DNA from: Pseudomonadota bacterium
GTDB lineage: Bacteria > Myxococcota > Polyangia > GCA-2747355 > JACKDQ01
DNA length: 6,320 bases
Assembly (NCBI GenBank): GCA_030591195.1
Contig: JAUVBO010000179.1
Location: 1-6,320, forward strand
Direction: 5' to 3'
Shown here: in pieces, positions 1 through 6,320 of the stretch
Position numbering within the stretch: the first letter of the stretch is position 1
Layout of the letters: each line of letters opens with the position of its first letter
The notes under the pieces: model-generated
The model's input: the letters and a program-made list of their open reading frames with translations, nothing else
Told to the model about the DNA's origin: nothing
Databases searched by the model: none
Made by a program: the position numbers and the translations under genes

Positions 1-894
1 ATCCCGGGCGCGGGCGTCGAGCTGACGCTGCTGCTGCCGTTGACCCTCTCGGTGATCCGCGCCTTGCTGGTACGGATCCGCGGCGAGCTCTACGCCTGCC
101 GGCTGGCGCGGATCGAGCGCTGTCTGCGGGTGCCCTGGTCGGAGGTCAAGGCGCTGGAGAACCGCGAGTACCTAGTCCACCAAGATCGCAACGTGGCGCT
201 GATCGACGCGGCGGAGATCCTCCAGCTCCCGCCGGAGATCGATCAGGGCGACGGCGAGCTGTCGGTGGTGCTGATCGGCGACGGCGAGCGGAGCTTCGGC
301 CTGGTGGTCGACTGCTTCCTCGGCGAGCACGATCTGGTGGTCCGACCGCTCGATCCGCGGCTGGGCCAGGTCCAGTGCGTCGCCACCGCGGCGATCGTCG
401 AGTCCGGCGAGCCGGTGCTGGTGCTCGACGTCGAGGACATGGTGGTGGCGATCGACGCGCGGCTCAGCGGCGCCCGGGTCGCGGCCCACGAGCTCTCCGC
501 CGAGGTCGACGAGGCGCGGGTGCTGGTGATCGACGACTCGGCCACCGTGCGCGAGCAGGAGCGCGAGCTGCTCGAGGGGCACGGCTTCGCCATCGACACC
601 GCCGAGGACGGGATGGACGGCTGGAGCGCGCTGACCCTCGGCCGCTACGAGGTGGTGATCACCGACATCGACATGCCGCGGATGAACGGGCTCGAGCTGA
701 TCCGCCGGATGCGGGCCTCCGAGCGTCACCGCCAGGTGCCGGTGATCGTCGTCTCCTACAAGGACCGCGACGAGGACCGCCAGGTGGCTCTCGCTGCTGG
801 CGCGACCCGCTACTTCACCAAGAGCGACCTTCACGACAGCTCGATCGTCGAGGCGGTCCGCGAGCTGATCGACAGCGGAGGGCCCGAGCGATGA
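1..894 (+). CDS. cheA: Hybrid CheA-type histidine kinase, WspE-like, C-terminal part (CheW-like + receiver domains), 5' truncated
   Basis: The reading frame is open from base 1, so the gene begins upstream; 297 C-terminal residues are visible. Residues 1-20 (window numbering) read like the end of a CheA ATPase domain, with the LPLTLSVIRALLV junction typical of CheA before its CheW-like (P5) domain, which spans about 21-150. A receiver domain follows at about 172-293: acidic pair D178-D179, phospho-acceptor D222 in TDIDMPRMNG, S252 and K274. The phosphotransfer (Hpt) and catalytic domains lie outside the window. CheA kinases autophosphorylate on histidine under control of receptors and CheW, then pass phosphate to receivers. 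The CheW+receiver tail, including VVSYKDR and ITDIDMPRMNG, closely resembles Pseudomonas WspE as I remember it. The fused receiver could act as a phosphate sink or regulate the kinase (inference). The stop overlaps the cheB start. An internal TTG at 40 is not a real start because coding continues upstream of it. Confidence 0.93.
   Translation: MPGAGVELTLLLPLTLSVIRALLVRIRGELYACRLARIERCLRVPWSEVKALENREYLVHQDRNVALIDAAEILQLPPEIDQGDGELSVVLIGDGERSFGLVVDCFLGEHDLVVRPLDPRLGQVQCVATAAIVESGEPVLVLDVEDMVVAIDARLSGARVAAHELSAEVDEARVLVIDDSATVREQERELLEGHGFAIDTAEDGMDGWSALTLGRYEVVITDIDMPRMNGLELIRRMRASERHRQVPVIVVSYKDRDEDRQVALAAGATRYFTKSDLHDSSIVEAVRELIDSGGPER
877..882 (+). promoter_or_regulatory. Shine-Dalgarno site for cheB (GGAGGG)
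   Basis: GGAGGG lies inside the end of the kinase gene, 8 bases before the ATG at 891 and 11 before the second ATG at 894. The spacing favours 891, which gives an ATGA stop/start overlap and probable translational coupling. The next junction has nearly the same leader (GGAGGGCC). Confidence 0.7.
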
Positions 895-1934
895 TGCGCG
901 TGGCGATCGTCAACGACCTGGGCCTCGCCGTCAGGGTCCTGACCGAGACCCTCGAGCTCGCGCCGGGCCGCTACCAGGTCGCGTGGGTCGCGGGCGACGG
1001 TCGCGAGGCGGTCGCGCGCTGCGCCGCCGACCCGCCGGACCTGATCCTGATGGACCTGGTGATGCCGGTGATGGACGGCGTGGAGGCCACGCGCCGGATC
1101 ATCGAGGGCGACCACCCGTGCCCGGTGCTGATCGTCACCGCGACGGTCGAGGGCCATGCCTCGATGGTCTTCGAGGCGATGGGATGGGGTGCCCTGGACG
1201 CGGTGGCGACGCCGGTCTTCAACGACCGGGCGGAGATCGATGGCGCCGAGGCGTTCCTCAAGAAGCTCGACACGGTCGGCAAGCTGCTGGCGGGCTCGGC
1301 CCGGGCGCGGCCGAGGGCGGCTCAGCCGCGGCGCTCCTCGAGCGCCTCGCCGCTGCTGGTCGCGATCGGCGCCTCGACCGGCGGGCCGCGGGCGCTGCGA
1401 GAGATCCTCTCGGGGTTGCCCGCCGACCTCGCCGCGCCAGTGATCCTGGTTCAACACATCGACGCTGGCTTCGTCGAGAACCTCGCCGGCTGGCTCGATC
1501 AGGACTCCCCGCTCGCTGTGCGGATCGCCAGCGCCGGCGCCCGTCCGGCGCCGGGTGAGGTCTTGCTGGCGGCCGGGCCGCGACACCTCGAGCTGACGGC
1601 TGCGGGGTTGCTGGCCTACCGCTCGGGTCCGTCGGACACGCCGTATCAGCCCTCGGTCGACATCTTCTTCTCGAGCGTCGCCCGCCACTGGCCGACGCCC
1701 TCGGTGGCGGTGCTGCTGACGGGCATGGGCGCCGACGGCGCCACGGGGCTGCTCGAGCTGCGCCGGGCAGGATGGCGGACCATCGCCCAGGACGAGGCGA
1801 CCTGCGCGGTCTTCGGCATGCCGAAGGCGGCGATCGAGCTCGGAGCGGTCGAGCGGGTGTTGCCTCTCGACCAGATTGGACGCGCGGTGCTCGACCGGCT
1901 GCGTGACCTCGTCGAACAGTGGAGGGCCGACTGA
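891..1934 (+). CDS. cheB: CheB receiver/protein-glutamate methylesterase, WspF-like
   Basis: This 347-residue protein has the normal two-domain CheB layout. An N-terminal receiver (about 3-125) carries phospho-acceptor D55 in LILMDLVMPVMDG; the usual acidic pair reads N8-D9, in the segment IVND that WspF also has. A basic, Ala/Ser/Pro-rich linker (about 139-153) leads to the methylesterase domain (about 155-345). Its catalytic triad is visible: S162 in GASTGGP, H189 in VQHI and D282 in GMGADGA. CheB removes methyl groups from receptor glutamates, and also deamidates glutamines, to reset signalling; phosphorylation by the kinase activates it. Receiver stretches such as FEAMGWGALDAV match WspF closely from memory. 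The likely client is the receptor encoded at 3144-5141. The start at 891 overlaps the kinase stop as ATGA and has a GGAGGG site 8 bases upstream; ATG 894 is a weaker alternative. No cheR is visible and it would be expected upstream. Confidence 0.96.
   Translation: MMRVAIVNDLGLAVRVLTETLELAPGRYQVAWVAGDGREAVARCAADPPDLILMDLVMPVMDGVEATRRIIEGDHPCPVLIVTATVEGHASMVFEAMGWGALDAVATPVFNDRAEIDGAEAFLKKLDTVGKLLAGSARARPRAAQPRRSSSASPLLVAIGASTGGPRALREILSGLPADLAAPVILVQHIDAGFVENLAGWLDQDSPLAVRIASAGARPAPGEVLLAAGPRHLELTAAGLLAYRSGPSDTPYQPSVDIFFSSVARHWPTPSVAVLLTGMGADGATGLLELRRAGWRTIAQDEATCAVFGMPKAAIELGAVERVLPLDQIGRAVLDRLRDLVEQWRAD
1921..1926 (+). promoter_or_regulatory. Shine-Dalgarno site for the receiver-phosphatase gene (GGAGGG)
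   Basis: GGAGGG lies within the last codons of cheB, 7 bases before the ATG at 1934. It favours that start over the GTG at 1919, which overlaps the site itself, and over the ATG at 1976, which has only a weak GGTGAG upstream. Confidence 0.7.
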
Positions 1935-3133
1935 TGCTCGCCTGTGAAGATCCCGGACGCGGCGCTGGTGAGCCGATGAAGACCATCGTGCTGCTGGTCG
2001 ATGACCAGCAGATCATCGCCGAGGCCGTGAGCCAGATGTTCGCCGGCGAGGCGGACATCGAGCTGCACCACTGCGGCGACCCGACCCGGGCGATCGACAC
2101 CGCGCTCGAGGTGCGGCCGACGGTGATCCTCCAGGACCTGGTGATGCCGGAGATCGACGGGCTGACCCTGGTCCGCTTCTTTCGCGCCCACCCCGAGACG
2201 CGCGAGATCCCGCTGATCGTGCTCTCGACCAAGGAGGAGCCGACGGTCAAGGCCGAGGCGTTCACGGTCGGCGCTAACGACTACGTCGTCAAGCTGCCCG
2301 ACAAGCTCGAGCTCTGCGCGCGGGTTCGCTACCACTCCCGCGGCTACGTCGCGCTCAAGCAACGCAACGCAGCCTTCTCGGCGCTGGCCAAGGAGCTCGC
2401 CGAGGCGGCGGCCTACGTTCGCTCGCTGCTGCCGCTCGAGCAGGACGAGGGGCCACCGGTTCGCTGGCGTTACATCCCCTCGGCCCAGCTCGGAGGAGAC
2501 GTCTTCGGCTACCACTGGATCGACGAGGAGCACTTCGCCGCCTACCTCTTCGACGTCTGTGGCCACGGGGTCGGGGCCTCGTTGCTTGGCGTCTCGCTGC
2601 TCAACCTGATGCGATCGCCCTCGCTGCAGCGGGAGACCGACCTGCTCGATCCAGCCGCCGTGCTGACGATGCTCAACCGGGTCTTCCCGATGGAGAGCAA
2701 CAACAACATGTTCTTCTCCGGCTGGTACGGGGTGATGCAGCGCCGCCAGCGGGTGCTGCGCTTCGCCAGCGGTGGCCATCCGCCGGCGGCGCTGGTCCAC
2801 GGCGTCGACCGCGAGACCGCGACGCTCGAGCGCCTGATCAGCCCCGGTGGATTCCTGATCGGCGCGATGCCCGACTCGCGCTACGATAACATCGAGGTCT
2901 CCCTCGCGCCCCAGGCGTCGCTGTTCGTCTTCAGCGACGGCGTCTACGAGGTGACGCGGGCCGACAGCGGCGAGATGTGGCAGCTCGACGACTGGCTCGC
3001 GGCCCTCGTCGCCAATGCCCGGGAGGCGGAGGTCGACCTCGACGCGCTGGTCGAGCTGGTGCGGCGGACCCAGGGGCGTGAGGGCTTCGACGACGACTTC
3101 TCCCTTTTTCAGGTGGACCTTTCGCGAGAGTGA
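1934..3133 (+). CDS. Response regulator with WspR-type receiver fused to a SpoIIE/PP2C-family Ser/Thr phosphatase
   Basis: The product has 399 residues. The receiver (about 16-135) has the D23-D24 acidic pair, phospho-acceptor D68 in ILQDLVMPEIDG, S98 and K120. Its stretches LSTKEEPTVK, GANDYVVKLPD and RYHSR are the same signatures I recall from Pseudomonas WspR. WspR continues into a GGDEF diguanylate cyclase; this protein instead has a short helical linker (about 136-172) and a SpoIIE-type PP2C domain (about 173-398). Acidic metal-site motifs are present: GGD (D189), FDVCGHG (D207), FSDG (D335) and FDDDF (D386-D388), so it looks catalytically intact. Such phosphatases usually dephosphorylate anti-anti-sigma (STAS) proteins; HsbR of Pseudomonas is a receiver-PP2C example that also carries a kinase domain, absent here. 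The substrate is not in the window. The TGATG overlap with cheB and the GGAGGG site support start 1934; ATG 1976 would remove 14 residues before the receiver. Confidence 0.93.
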   Translation: MLACEDPGRGAGEPMKTIVLLVDDQQIIAEAVSQMFAGEADIELHHCGDPTRAIDTALEVRPTVILQDLVMPEIDGLTLVRFFRAHPETREIPLIVLSTKEEPTVKAEAFTVGANDYVVKLPDKLELCARVRYHSRGYVALKQRNAAFSALAKELAEAAAYVRSLLPLEQDEGPPVRWRYIPSAQLGGDVFGYHWIDEEHFAAYLFDVCGHGVGASLLGVSLLNLMRSPSLQRETDLLDPAAVLTMLNRVFPMESNNNMFFSGWYGVMQRRQRVLRFASGGHPPAALVHGVDRETATLERLISPGGFLIGAMPDSRYDNIEVSLAPQASLFVFSDGVYEVTRADSGEMWQLDDWLAALVANAREAEVDLDALVELVRRTQGREGFDDDFSLFQVDLSRE

Positions 3134-3143
3134 GCCGAGGAAG

Positions 3144-5141
3144 ATGGCTGACGGTAAGATCCCATACTGGCGCACGATCCGTGGCGCGATCCTCTGGCGC
3201 ATCGGGTTGTTGGTGACGCTGGTCTTCTTTGGCGTCACCGGGCTCTATCTCCACGACCGCTACACCACGCTGCGCGAGGGGATCGCGCAGATCGTCCTCA
3301 ACGGCGCCAGGCTCGCCGCCCAGCCGATCGACGCTGCCAACGACGAGGCCATCGACCTGGCGCGGACCAGCGCGCTGCTGCAGGCCAACGGGCTGTTCGG
3401 GCTGCGCGCCCGCTCGCTGACCCACCTGCGTGGCTCGCTCGAGGCTTCGCCCGAGCTGCTGGCGACGTTCTTGATCTACGAGCGCGATGCCGACGGCAAG
3501 GACGGCGCGAGCCAGCAGCAGGCGGGGACCGACGCCGGCGGGCGGTTCACGCCACTCTGGCGCCGGACGGGCGCGGGGGTGCGCCTCGCCTCGGCGGCGA
3601 GCAAGGACCCGGAGGTCGAGCGGTGCCGGGTCAGCGCCCCTGGCAAGTCGACCGAGGCGAGCCGCCATTGCTTCGGCGAGCCACGCCGCGACGCCGAGGG
3701 ACGACTGGTGGCCGACATCCTCCATCCGGTCTACGGCCAGGGCGGCCAGCTCCTCGGAGCCGCCGGGGTCACCCGCCGGCTCGACCGGCTCGGCGCCGCA
3801 CTGAAGCAGGCGTTGCCCTCTCCGGGGGCGGAGCTGTTGCTGGTAAGCCGTCGCGGGCAGGTGATCGCCAGCACCCGCGACGCATCCCTCGCGGGCAAGC
3901 CGCTGGCTCGCGTCGCCGGGGGCTCCGCCTTTGGCGCGATGGCCACCGGGAAGGTCAAGACCGTCGAGGGCCGAGACGGTCACGGCTACATCGTCGCCGT
4001 GGCTCCGATCTCCCGGGGAGGCTGGCGGCTCTACCTCCGGGTGCCCGAGGCGGGGCTGCTGCGACCGGTGATCAGCGCCGTGCTGCGCAGCGGGCTGATT
4101 ACCCTCGCTGGTGTGCTGGTGCTGTTCTGGGTCCTGCTGCGCACTGCGCGCAACATCACCGCGCCGATCGAGGCTGCGGCGGCCTCGGCCCAGGCCATCG
4201 CCCGCGGCGATCTCACCGCCGAGGTCACCGTTAGCGCCCGCAACGAGACCGGCCAGCTGCTCGAGGCGATCCGCACCATGTCGGGTAACCTCGGCGATCT
4301 CGTGCGCCAGACCCAGGAGCTGACGGCTCAGGTAAACAGCTCCACGGTCCAGATCCTCGCCTCGGCCACCGAGCTCGAGGGGAACACCGAGACCCAGGCT
4401 GGCTTGGCGCGGGCGGTGGAGGGCACCGCCGAGGAGATCGCCGGCACGGCGAAGGAGCTGTCGGGCACGATGAACGAGATCGCGCGGACCGCCGAGCGGA
4501 CCCGCACCGCGGCGACGAGCAGCGTCTCCGATCTCGAGGGGATGGTCCGCGGCATCGAGCGGATGAAGGGGATCACCGAGCGCTTCGTCAGCCAGATGCG
4601 CGAGCTTGGCCAGCGGGCTCGCACCACCGATTCGATCATCGTCACCTTCACCAAGATCGCCGACCAGATCAACCTGCTGTCTCTCAACGCCGCGCTCGAG
4701 GCGGAGAAGGCCGGTGAGGCGGGGCGGGGCTTCGCGGTGGTGTCCCGGGAGATCCGGCGTCTCGCCGACCAGTCGGCCAACGCGATCCTCGAGATCGAGG
4801 CCGTGCTCGGCGGCTTCTCGACCTCGTTTGCCGAGGGCGTCGAGCAGCTCGAGCAGCTCGCCGCCGAGGTGCGCAGCTCGGCCAAGGAGATCGAGACCGT
4901 CGGTACGCGGCAGTCGACGATCATCGACCAGGTGCGCCAGCTCTCCCCCCGGGTCGACGCGATCAACGAAGGTATGGGCCAGCAGCTCGAGCGCACCAGT
5001 CGCATCTCCGCGGCGATCGGCGAGCTGAGCGATGGGGCCGAGCGGGTCGACCGTTCGCTGAAGGACTTCCGCAGCTCCACCGCCTCGCTCAATGACGTGG
5101 CCCAGCGGCTCGCGGGCCGGATCTCGCAGTTCAAGGTTTGA
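3144..5141 (+). CDS. Methyl-accepting chemotaxis receptor with probable double-Cache periplasmic sensor and WspA-like signalling tip
   Basis: This 665-residue receptor has a membrane helix near 20-36, a periplasmic region of about 275 residues (38-312), a second membrane helix near 317-332, a HAMP domain (about 333-386) and a cytoplasmic coiled coil with the MCP hairpin tip (about 500-550; core LNAALEAEKAGEAGRGFAVV at 514-533). The sensor looks like double Cache: 191-216 (HPVYGQGGQLLGAAGV) resembles the end of the first lobe, and ELLLVSRRGQVIAST (from 230) to about 305 resembles the second. The tip motifs LSLNAALEAEKAGE and EIRRLADQ and the C-terminal half (INEGM, ending SQFKV) resemble WspA as remembered; WspA's sensor is a different, helical type. 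Acidic pairs such as E430-E431 could be methylation sites. No CheR-tethering pentapeptide is seen at the C-terminus. The ATG at 3144 follows GAGGAAG and precedes the first membrane helix. The gene starts 10 bases after the phosphatase gene, so it is probably co-transcribed. Confidence 0.94.
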   Translation: MADGKIPYWRTIRGAILWRIGLLVTLVFFGVTGLYLHDRYTTLREGIAQIVLNGARLAAQPIDAANDEAIDLARTSALLQANGLFGLRARSLTHLRGSLEASPELLATFLIYERDADGKDGASQQQAGTDAGGRFTPLWRRTGAGVRLASAASKDPEVERCRVSAPGKSTEASRHCFGEPRRDAEGRLVADILHPVYGQGGQLLGAAGVTRRLDRLGAALKQALPSPGAELLLVSRRGQVIASTRDASLAGKPLARVAGGSAFGAMATGKVKTVEGRDGHGYIVAVAPISRGGWRLYLRVPEAGLLRPVISAVLRSGLITLAGVLVLFWVLLRTARNITAPIEAAAASAQAIARGDLTAEVTVSARNETGQLLEAIRTMSGNLGDLVRQTQELTAQVNSSTVQILASATELEGNTETQAGLARAVEGTAEEIAGTAKELSGTMNEIARTAERTRTAATSSVSDLEGMVRGIERMKGITERFVSQMRELGQRARTTDSIIVTFTKIADQINLLSLNAALEAEKAGEAGRGFAVVSREIRRLADQSANAILEIEAVLGGFSTSFAEGVEQLEQLAAEVRSSAKEIETVGTRQSTIIDQVRQLSPRVDAINEGMGQQLERTSRISAAIGELSDGAERVDRSLKDFRSSTASLNDVAQRLAGRISQFKV

Positions 5142-5178
5142 GCCCGCACCGCCTTCCCGGCAGACGACGGTTGAGCTC

Positions 5179-5204
5179 CCGGGGATCGAGCCGTAGATCC
5201 CCGG
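5179..5204 (+). terminator. Perfect 9-bp inverted repeat, possible terminator hairpin
   Basis: Arms CCGGGGATC (5179-5187) and GATCCCCGG (5196-5204) are exact reverse complements around an 8-base loop (GAGCCGTA). The hairpin begins 37 bases after the receptor stop, a usual terminator position, and is GC-rich. No T-run follows, so it is not a classical intrinsic terminator. It could end transcription with Rho, protect the 3' end, or be a protein-binding palindrome. Confidence 0.5.
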
Positions 5205-5213
5205 CGTAGATCC
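5192..5213 (+). repeat. Short tandem direct repeat CGTAGATCC (two copies, 13-base period)
   Basis: CGTAGATCC occurs at 5192-5200 and again at 5205-5213. The first copy includes the loop end and right arm of the inverted repeat. The second copy, continuing as GATCCTC (5209-5215), could pair with the left arm GGGGATC (5181-5187) through one G-U pair, giving an alternative hairpin. Confidence 0.5.
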
Positions 5214-5235
5214 TCGCCCCGCCCGCTGATTGGGA

Positions 5236-5263
5236 TTGACTTCCCGGCCAGGCGCGTGATACC
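5236..5263 (+). promoter_or_regulatory. Weak sigma70-like promoter candidate upstream of tssB
   Basis: TTGACT (5236-5241) matches five of six bases of the -35 consensus. GATACC (5258-5263), 16 bases downstream, matches only three of six of the -10. It sits at the edge of the AT-richer stretch of the gap. A second weak candidate is TTGGAA (5281-5286) with TAGATC (5305-5310) at 18-base spacing. Either would give a leader of about 140-190 bases before tssB. Confidence 0.22.
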
Positions 5264-5444
5264 AAACACCCGCTATTCCTTTGGAACTATTGATCATGCA
5301 GGGCTAGATCTGGGCGTCGTTGAGGCATCGGAGGGGCTAAGCAGTGCCTCTCGCGCCGCGCACTTCATCGGACGCCAGGACAGAACGCGCGAGCCGCCTT
5401 GCTGGACCGATAAATCCCAGATGCGGCAAAGGCCGAGGAAGACC

Positions 5445-5449
5445 GAGGG
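5445..5449 (+). promoter_or_regulatory. Shine-Dalgarno site for tssB (GAGGG)
   Basis: GAGGG lies 6 bases before the ATG at 5456 and supports that start over the internal ATG at 5495, which would cut into the conserved N-terminal strand and has no good site upstream. Confidence 0.6.
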
Positions 5450-5455
5450 ACACGG

Positions 5456-5989
5456 ATGGCGATTCAAGACGAAATACCGAAATCGCGACTGACGATGCGG
5501 TACAAGACGGAGATCGAGGGCCAGGCGGAGGACATCTCCCTGCCGATGCGGCTGGCGGTTCTCGGCGACTTCTCCAAGGGGACCTCGAAGGACAGCAAGG
5601 TGGACCTCGACGAGCGCCGGGTGCGCAACCTCGACGGCACCAACACCGACGCCGTGATGAAGGACATGGGGGTCAAGCTGTCGATGGCGGTCGAGAACAA
5701 GATCGACGGCGAGGGCGACGATATGCAGGTCGATCTGCCGATCGACAGCATGAAGGCGTTCTCGCCCGACGAGATCGCCCAGCACGTGCCGAAGCTTCGT
5801 GGGCTGTTGACGCTCAAGACCCTGGTCGAGGAGGCGGTCTCGAACGTCGACAATCGCAAGGAGTTCCGCAAGCTGCTCGCCCAGCTGATGGCGAATCCCG
5901 AGGCGCTGGAAAAGATGATCGGCGAGCTCAAGGGCTTCGAGAGCTTTAAGGTTCCCACCGCCAAGCCAGCCGAAGGCGCTGACGCGTAA
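5456..5989 (+). CDS. tssB: Type VI secretion system contractile sheath small subunit TssB (VipA/ImpB)
   Basis: At 177 residues this is the usual size for TssB. The N-terminal part has the family pattern: a short polar lead (KSRLTMRYKTEIEG), then LPMRLAVLGDFSKG (about 29-42), a DLDERRVRNLDGTNTDAVM stretch matching the VipA segment before 'AVM', and helical C-terminal sequence (about 104-165; PKLRGLLTLKTLVEEAV, MANPEALEKMIGEL). TssB and TssC interlock to form the cytoplasmic sheath around the Hcp tube; sheath contraction fires the spike and ClpV then recycles it. It is followed after 12 bases by tssC, the standard order. Codon use is like that of the upstream genes, with no sign of recent transfer. 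It is separated from the chemosensory operon by 314 bases and probably has its own promoter. Confidence 0.95.
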   Translation: MAIQDEIPKSRLTMRYKTEIEGQAEDISLPMRLAVLGDFSKGTSKDSKVDLDERRVRNLDGTNTDAVMKDMGVKLSMAVENKIDGEGDDMQVDLPIDSMKAFSPDEIAQHVPKLRGLLTLKTLVEEAVSNVDNRKEFRKLLAQLMANPEALEKMIGELKGFESFKVPTAKPAEGADA

Positions 5990-5994
5990 AGGAG
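5989..5994 (+). promoter_or_regulatory. Shine-Dalgarno site for tssC (AAGGAG)
   Basis: AAGGAG overlaps the last base of the tssB stop codon and lies 7 bases before the ATG at 6002. It is the best Shine-Dalgarno match in the window, in keeping with strong production of a sheath protein. Confidence 0.75.
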
Positions 5995-6001
5995 CGGAAA
6001 A

Positions 6002-6320
6002 ATGGCCGAAGACGTCAAGACCGAAGAGAAGGTCGAGCTCGACCTCAAGCGGTTCCTTTCGAGCATGAAGCTGAGCACCGAGGGTGCCGAGCCGGTGCCG
6101 ATGGTCCAGGAGGACCTCGCGGTCGTCAAGGAGGACGTGAGCGACGAGGACCGCTTCGTCAACAGCATGGCGGCGCTGCTGCTCAACGTCGACATCACCC
6201 AGGGCCGCTTCGACAAGGGTAGCGCCCAGGAGGTGATCGGGCGGATCGATCAGATCGTCAACGCCCAGCTCAACGAGATCATTCACCACGACGCGTTCAA
6301 GGAGATAAAATCGAACTGGC
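6002..6320 (+). CDS. tssC: Type VI secretion system contractile sheath large subunit TssC (VipB/ImpC), 3' truncated
   Basis: The frame is open to the window end and shows 106 complete codons; full TssC proteins are usually near 500 residues. The identifying part is at about 67-106: an acidic/helical stretch (IGRIDQIVNAQLNEIIHH) running into HHDAFKEIKSNW. This corresponds to the well-conserved TssC segment of the type 'ILHHPEFQxLESxWRGL', just before the sheath core. The first 60 or so residues are charged and variable. In V. cholerae VipB the N-terminal helix is the ClpV recognition element; here FLSSMKLS (19-26) is a possible counterpart, but I do not see the usual LLDxIV pattern. The start at 6002 has an AAGGAG site 7 bases upstream, and the gene is 12 bases after tssB, so the two are surely co-transcribed and made in stoichiometric amounts. 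Confidence 0.93.
   Translation, partial: MAEDVKTEEKVELDLKRFLSSMKLSTEGAEPVPMVQEDLAVVKEDVSDEDRFVNSMAALLLNVDITQGRFDKGSAQEVIGRIDQIVNAQLNEIIHHDAFKEIKSNW

Follow-up and report, generated by a model that had tools for sequence, protein, structure and literature searches.

What does a Wsp-like chemosensory pathway control when its last gene encodes a phosphatase? Wsp is the textbook surface-sensing route to cyclic di-GMP (c-di-GMP), and contig JAUVBO010000179.1 (assembly GCA_030591195.1, a Pseudomonadota bacterium that GTDB places in the Myxococcota) poses this question, because a receiver joined to a SpoIIE/PP2C domain follows its WspE-like and WspF-like genes. The window, meaning the whole stretch analysed here, is apparently one complete contig of 6320 bases with all six main open reading frames (ORFs) on the + strand; since it appears to be a whole contig, genes beyond it are invisible. 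An initial annotation made from the sequence alone had read the ORF at 1934-3133 as a WspR-like receiver wired to a phosphatase in place of a diguanylate cyclase. Our analysis supported this interpretation overall, and the mechanism implied by it, control of protein dephosphorylation, also appears supported. We consider it probable (about 0.7) that the protein is a Wsp-type terminal response regulator of the alternative cellular functions (ACF) class, in which CheA/WspE would phosphorylate the receiver and the PP2C domain would dephosphorylate a STAS protein of a partner switch. The genes and domains concerned are as follows.

1..894, + strand: 3' part of a CheA/WspE-like kinase gene, with a CheW-like domain (Pfam CheW, 7e-17) and a C-terminal receiver (Response_reg, 2e-24); the 5' end lies outside the window.
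891..1934, + strand: CheB/WspF-like receiver-methylesterase (Pfam CheB_methylest, 3e-59; NCBIfam CheB NF009206, 433 bits).
1934..3133, + strand: REC-SpoIIE phosphatase response regulator, 399 aa (Pfam Response_reg and SpoIIE).
1979..2383, + strand: Wsp-type receiver of this protein, residues 16-150, by WspR matches in the PDB and by receiver trees.
2303..2425, + strand: predicted long helix, residues 124-164, linking receiver to phosphatase, by DSSP on the AlphaFold2 model.
2525..3118, + strand: SpoIIE/PP2C phosphatase domain, residues 198-395 by Pfam, with D189 just before the Pfam match.

Pfam assigned residues 19-131 of the REC-SpoIIE protein to Response_reg (7e-19) and residues 198-395 to SpoIIE (PF07228, 6e-36), and to no other family, so that a GGDEF output domain is absent from the product of 1934-3133. 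The coordinates, domains and catalytic residues given by the initial annotation were right, and the motifs that it had ascribed to WspR were located at residues 97 (LSTKEEPTVK), 113 (GANDYVVKLPD) and 132 (RYHSR). Receiver residues D23, D24, D68, S98 and K120 and PP2C residues D189, D207, D335, D387 and D388 were all present and invariant in a 23-sequence alignment; D386 was present but varied in that alignment. The phospho-acceptor site of the receiver and the metal-site aspartates of the PP2C domain thus appear intact. The AlphaFold2 model (mean predicted local distance difference test score 91.5, predicted template modelling score 0.75) had a receiver and a PP2C-like domain with a single long helix (124-164) between them. 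When the model was searched with Foldseek, the REC-PP2C protein RssB came first and WspR 3bre_B matched with 53% identity over 170 columns; the phosphatase domains of SiaA (PP2C 6k4e), SpoIIE, RsbU and RsbX were also matched. The ATG of the gene overlaps the cheB stop codon, with GGAGGG just upstream of the ATG, and the position directly after WspE-like and WspF-like genes was borne out by the Pfam assignments at 1-894 and 891-1934.

The best PDB sequence matches were both WspR (3bre, 180 bits; 3i5a, 172 bits), followed by RssB (91 bits) and PleD (63 bits), and identity between the window receiver and WspR-type receivers was 53-60%. In a receiver tree of 76 rows, the window protein, 29 REC-SpoIIE proteins of its family (every third member, 29 of 87), five WspR proteins (GGDEF), three REC-cyclase proteins and three further receivers formed one clade (100/100), and 14 other REC-SpoIIE, 11 WspE and 10 CheB receivers fell outside it; the bootstrap of this tree was not fully settled. 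The clade was kept (69 rows; SH-like approximate likelihood ratio test 100) in a quick tree of 102 rows to which 28 more REC-GGDEF receivers had been added and from which two long CheB rows were left out, with the 14 other REC-SpoIIE, the 11 WspE and all eight CheB receivers outside. Because the receiver alignments are short (125 columns), we trusted the main split alone. A single clade of all sampled REC-SpoIIE receivers was rejected (approximately unbiased (AU) test, p 0.0055). Grouping with RsbU/HsbR-type regulators rather than WspR, the outcome that the initial annotation had named as speaking against it, was therefore not found in this sample; the 14 outgroup REC-SpoIIE rows were matches to the same window protein and included STAS- and HATPase-linked proteins from Pantoea and Paracoccus, with no row named HsbR or RsbU. 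On this evidence from sequence, the receiver is of the Wsp type, as the initial annotation had suggested. The WspR rows were nested inside the family in the 76-row tree, as if the phosphatase output were ancestral to GGDEF; this nesting was lost with the 28 additional REC-GGDEF rows. We do not claim such an ancestry, given the 102-row tree and the fact that a single clade of the family's own REC-SpoIIE receivers was not rejected (AU p 0.123). A tree of the SpoIIE domains had four changes and long branches and could not tell a single lineage of phosphatase domains from several.

The arrangement is a common one, not an exception. A protein search gave 7689 of 8000 scored candidates with E<=0.001, of which only some may be Wsp-type; all 120 candidates among the matches listed have both Pfam domains, and their source names, where given, include RsbU, fused response regulator/phosphatase and SpoIIE family phosphatase. 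As related loci we took the best 80 of at least 574 genome relatives found with the REC-SpoIIE alignment. CheB lay directly upstream on the same strand in 44 of the 80, together with CheA in 32; che genes were found elsewhere in the locus in 15, and five loci had too little room. The 44 CheB-linked loci came from nine phyla by NCBI names, outside Pseudomonadota, plus six records without a phylum; these are names of metagenome-assembled genome (MAG) records, some of which may be misbinned. Loci L052 (Ignavibacteriae) and L065 (Desulfobulbaceae) had nearly identical receivers and surroundings, pointing to misbinning or very recent transfer. Strong members (E<=1e-70) were otherwise sparse. Among 297 acidobacterial genomes six had one, and one of these six matched only over the phosphatase part; among 247 genomes from the phylum to which G016 belongs, 11 had one. 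Viral contigs held no relatives of the REC-SpoIIE protein.

Gene order in one relative, G065, was that of a whole Wsp operon. By Pfam, G065 carries MCP, CheW, CheR, CheW, CheA (Hpt, HATPase, CheW, REC), CheB and REC-SpoIIE, the complete Wsp order; this order matches an annotated Azoarcus operon whose last gene encodes a diguanylate cyclase, and behind the phosphatase gene comes one for a methyl-accepting chemotaxis protein (MCP), as it does in the window. In G070 the order was MCP, CheR, CheA, CheB, REC-SpoIIE, with no CheW gene identified there. The window holds the WspE 3' end and then WspF in Wsp order, with genes further upstream outside the contig, and the receiver of the 1-894 product grouped with the WspE receiver of an annotated Wsp-order operon in the 76-row tree. 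Planctomycete members (L003, L006, L008, L009, L011, L034, L062, L078 and others) had no che genes within up to 10 kb; EF-Tu, a planctomycete neighbour, made up 6 of 109 downstream genes, and the input may differ in these members.

Wsp-type receivers were also found on GGDEF or nucleotide cyclase domains, sometimes in the same locus as the phosphatase. REC-GGDEF adjoins CheB in two Methylococcaceae loci (L001, L004), with REC-SpoIIE some 9 kb away on the other strand, and by Pfam a REC-Guanylate_cyc gene stands between CheB and REC-SpoIIE in three others (L005, 7624-9111; L007, 8447-9913; L022, 8338-9798). Four CheB-holding loci (L122-L125) carry tandem Wsp-type receivers, with REC-GGDEF in both places except the second of L125, which is cut by the contig end. 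Paired regulators are the pattern expected if one CheA feeds several outputs, and such feeding may occur at these loci. In a locus from Lentisphaerae (L043, 11177-11980), a second Wsp-type receiver protein of 267 aa with no other Pfam domain follows the REC-SpoIIE gene.

What the phosphatase may act on was approached through its neighbours. Models for STAS and HATPase proteins, seeded with genes seen beside the phosphatase, were run over the ORFs of the 80 loci. STAS genes were found in six loci and RsbW-like HATPase genes in nine, all within 1.6 kb and together in 11 of 80 loci, and Pfam confirmed all six STAS and all nine HATPase_c_2 genes. A tenth HATPase match, 3.3 kb away in L017, was a 45-residue piece of a longer ORF and was not counted. 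The phosphatase gene is followed by HATPase and then STAS in L002; in L020 (Desulfoferrobacter suflitae), which also has che genes, the HATPase and STAS genes lie on the opposite strand just behind it, and the sole HATPase_c_2 match of G014 at E<=1e-8 falls, by coordinates, at this gene beside the phosphatase. For the background density, 22 genomes with 107.3 Mb in all contained 84 HATPase_c_2 matches at E<=1e-8. At this density 0.03 matches would be expected within 2 kb behind 22 loci, and six were seen (Poisson 2e-12); the 22 genomes were hand-picked, not drawn at random, from the 44 family genomes, those from the 80 loci, and as the models were also seeded from near genes, the size of the enrichment is rough. 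Among 109 downstream genes with 139 families, HATPase_c_2 was the commonest (8), followed by EF-Tu (6), STAS (4) and MCP (3). This set was scanned from 112 listed genes, three of which were left out and two replaced by known HATPase genes (L059, L060); without these two, HATPase_c_2 stood at 6 of 109, a tie with EF-Tu (6), and the HATPase gene of L073 was not among the 109. Two kinds of neighbourhood may be noted: in L021 (11166-12695), an RsbW-like HATPase_c_2 domain begins a 509-aa protein without other Pfam domain, 17 bases after REC-SpoIIE, and in L071 and L074 (Verrucomicrobiota) the order was REC-SpoIIE, HATPase_c_2 and then genes that resemble, by eye, ABC transporter ATPases. Taken together, the neighbours speak for a STAS substrate in some family members at least.

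We propose the following route. Chemoreceptors, possibly including the MCP encoded at 3144-5141, would control the CheA/WspE kinase, which would phosphorylate receiver D68; the phosphorylation signal would pass via the long helix 124-164 to the PP2C domain, and this domain would dephosphorylate a phospho-STAS (anti-anti-sigma-type) protein encoded outside the window. The dephosphorylated STAS protein would then capture an RsbW-like HATPase and free the HATPase target, which may be a sigma factor or an enzyme. The sequences themselves show the domain architecture, the intactness of the catalytic residues, the order of the genes, the Wsp type of the receiver and, next to some relatives, STAS/HATPase genes; CheA phosphotransfer, the direction of control, STAS as the substrate here and the final target are parts of the route that we infer.

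Several results weigh against this route. Among the six main ORFs of the window, Pfam found no STAS, anti-sigma HATPase, FHA or Ser/Thr kinase gene, in agreement with the initial annotation, which had seen no STAS or anti-sigma partner. Likewise, 69 of 80 relatives had no STAS or HATPase gene in the searched stretch, in which many contigs are short and the seeds of the models were neighbouring genes. Since no partner is present in the contig and none in these 69 relatives, a STAS substrate for the window protein itself is our inference. Look-alike pairs occur among the 11 STAS/HATPase loci (L001/L004, L060/L073, L071/L074), so that the independent cases are fewer than 11. Sixteen of the 80 loci had no che genes within up to 10 kb, and the receiver may therefore not always be served by an adjacent CheA. 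Finally, the literature yielded no biochemistry for the Wsp-type REC-SpoIIE family.

Other explanations were weighed against the same evidence. P. aeruginosa RssB was the first match by structure and the third by sequence, and among NCBIfam models RssB_Pseudo ranked first (102 bits, well short of the 700 bits of its cut-off), as would be expected of an RssB-like protein whose PP2C domain serves only as a binding adaptor. This is very improbable given that the PP2C metal-site aspartates are present and invariant in 23 aligned members and that the receiver scores as WspR-like rather than RssB-like. We are equally disinclined to see here a general regulator of the RsbU/HsbR kind that stands beside che genes by chance: its domain order equals that of the STAS/HATPase-linked REC-SpoIIE proteins of Pantoea and Paracoccus, but the receivers do not group (AU p 0.0055) and the che linkage recurs in 44 of 80 loci of nine named phyla. 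A feedback on c-di-GMP, in which the STAS protein acted on by the phosphatase binds a diguanylate cyclase as in HsbA/HsbD and SiaC/SiaD, is unlikely but would fit several facts. HsbA is a substrate of HsbR, and its phosphorylated form is presumed to activate the cyclase HsbD (PMC5812489); a SiaABCD pathway has been reported (PMC9239204), and the SiaA PP2C domain is a close fold match; two loci (L001, L004) carry both REC-GGDEF and REC-SpoIIE genes. Against such a feedback, Pfam found no GGDEF gene in the window, and GGDEF was outside the 25 commonest of the 139 families in the 109 downstream genes. The initial annotation had suggested, if its reading was right, that the pathway controls dephosphorylation rather than c-di-GMP; this wording has to be qualified because STAS proteins can themselves act on diguanylate cyclases, as in HsbA/HsbD (PMC5812489).

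The remaining alternative arises from the genes that follow the phosphatase. Immediately behind the last chemosensory gene, and transcribed in the same direction, two of them (5456-6319) encode a type VI secretion system (T6SS) sheath. The initial annotation was silent on these following genes.

3144..5141, + strand: methyl-accepting chemotaxis protein, separated from the phosphatase gene by 10 bases (Pfam MCPsignal and HAMP score above their cut-offs and dCache_1 below).
5142..5455, + strand: gap of 314 bases before tssB.
5456..5989, + strand: tssB, for the small sheath subunit of the T6SS (TIGR03358, 152 bits, above cut-off).
6002..6319, + strand: 5' end of tssC, for the large sheath subunit of the T6SS, truncated where the window stops (partial VipB and TIGR03355 matches).

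The tssC scores lie below the whole-protein cut-offs, as expected of a gene fragment. The sensor region of the MCP (residues 1-330; 3144-4133) matched only itself among 7996 scored candidates. The window TssB had relatives of 66-76% identity in Methylobacter, Methylomagnum, Syntrophobacter, Syntrophus, Deltaproteobacteria and Myxococcales records. GC content at third codon positions (GC3) was 0.89-0.94 across all six genes, and overall GC was 0.61-0.62 in tssB and tssC vs 0.68-0.73 in the other four, in which we see no clear sign of a chimeric contig. A simple scan of 5100-5500 found no sigma-70-like promoter or terminator-like site, which in a GC-rich genome is weak evidence either way.

PppA dephosphorylates a T6SS protein in the threonine phosphorylation pathway, and the phosphatase of the window could in the same manner be a T6SS control enzyme, with a surface or contact signal setting firing or assembly. 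The position of tssB and tssC, which share the strand of the MCP gene and follow it at 314 bases, the gap without promoter or terminator in the simple scan and the like GC3 of all six genes would agree with this. So would a gene with a Tlde1 domain, that of a T6SS effector family, which in Sulfidibacter corallicola (L072, 12588-13082) lies about 1.4 kb downstream of REC-SpoIIE. However, tblastn with the window proteins found tssB or tssC within up to 10 kb in 0 of the 80 family loci, a result in which single misses are possible. The same search of 13 known T6SS regions found tssB in 10 and tssB or tssC in 12, the TssB query missing three, so that the absence near relatives is good but incomplete. 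No tssB match was found in 33 of 44 family-bearing genomes, many of them incomplete MAGs, and 13 T6SS regions of the other 11 of these genomes (13 of 16 tssB places) held no che genes and no phosphatase. Close relatives of the window TssB (E<=1e-40) were absent from 61, 148 and 247 genomes, the last two sets overlapping; these empty scans say little, because no scanned genome was known to match and tblastn misses three of 13. The domain is moreover of the SpoIIE type, with STAS and HATPase among its recurrent neighbours, and Pfam found no Ser/Thr kinase or FHA gene in the window, with the rest of the T6SS cluster outside the contig. A T6SS control enzyme is therefore quite unlikely. The adjacency itself is real in this contig and unrepeated in the other family loci examined. 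A broader proposal, that a Wsp-type surface- or contact-sensing array is wired via REC-SpoIIE and an extra chemoreceptor to the adjacent T6SS, with contact setting its expression or assembly by dephosphorylation, is conceivable but doubtful.

The preferred reading, a Wsp-type regulator acting on a partner switch, has to be placed among known systems. The Wsp system (WspA-F and WspR, in Pseudomonas and betaproteobacteria) shares the order CheA-REC, CheB and response regulator with the window and differs in its GGDEF output, where the window has SpoIIE/PP2C. A 2021 survey of 794 wsp clusters, as given in its accessible part, knew no outputs but WspR and WspH and placed Wsp solely in beta- and gammaproteobacteria; its search demanded synteny together with 30% or more identity to two query systems (PMC8552884). 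The phosphatase variant is found outside these two groups. WspH systems of Burkholderia resemble the window in placing a Wsp-type receiver on a non-GGDEF output, but that output is a histidine kinase and the wspH gene lies at the 5' side (PMC8552884). CheR-TPR clusters described in 2012 contain REC fused to a family 2C phosphatase or a mononucleotidyl cyclase and belong to the ACF class (PMC3447774), as would the window protein; that paper gives, in the part at hand, domain combinations, no WspR receiver kinship and no STAS partner. Whether the arrangement had already been described as a standard Wsp variant, which the initial annotation had named as a second ground against its reading, has a divided answer: the REC-family 2C phosphatase combination is listed (PMC3447774), whereas the Wsp survey, in the part available, has WspR and WspH only (PMC8552884).

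Chemosensory genes have been linked to partner switches elsewhere. In Shewanella, Che1-CrsR-CrsA ties a chemosensory cluster to such a switch (PMC9855816), and early F7 clusters combine chemosensory genes with a serine phosphatase and an anti-sigma antagonist (PMC7184735); unlike the window, both are of the F7 type and include CheY and CheD. In HsbR a receiver controls a PP2C domain whose substrate is the STAS protein HsbA; unlike the window protein, HsbR contains a kinase domain as well and receives its input from HptB instead of CheA (PMC5812489). Other REC-SpoIIE regulators differ in their receivers, 14 of which were sampled and did not group with the window family. Each ingredient thus has a precedent, in the REC-phosphatases of ACF clusters, the Che1/F7 partner switches and HsbR. 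A search of the open-access literature, which leaves most subscription papers outside, found no paper with both WspE and SpoIIE. As far as these searches show, the receiver's Wsp kinship, the breadth of the family, the paired outputs and the STAS/HATPase neighbours are new.

The loci described here place a Wsp-type receiver on a phosphatase, directly downstream of CheB, in nine named phyla outside Pseudomonadota; the survey, in its accessible part, limits Wsp to beta- and gammaproteobacteria. The Wsp reading suggests a function for a large set of proteins among the 7689 candidates. If the loci have been read rightly, Wsp would be an input module to which different outputs can be fitted, and chemosensory systems would be predicted to reach partner switches directly.

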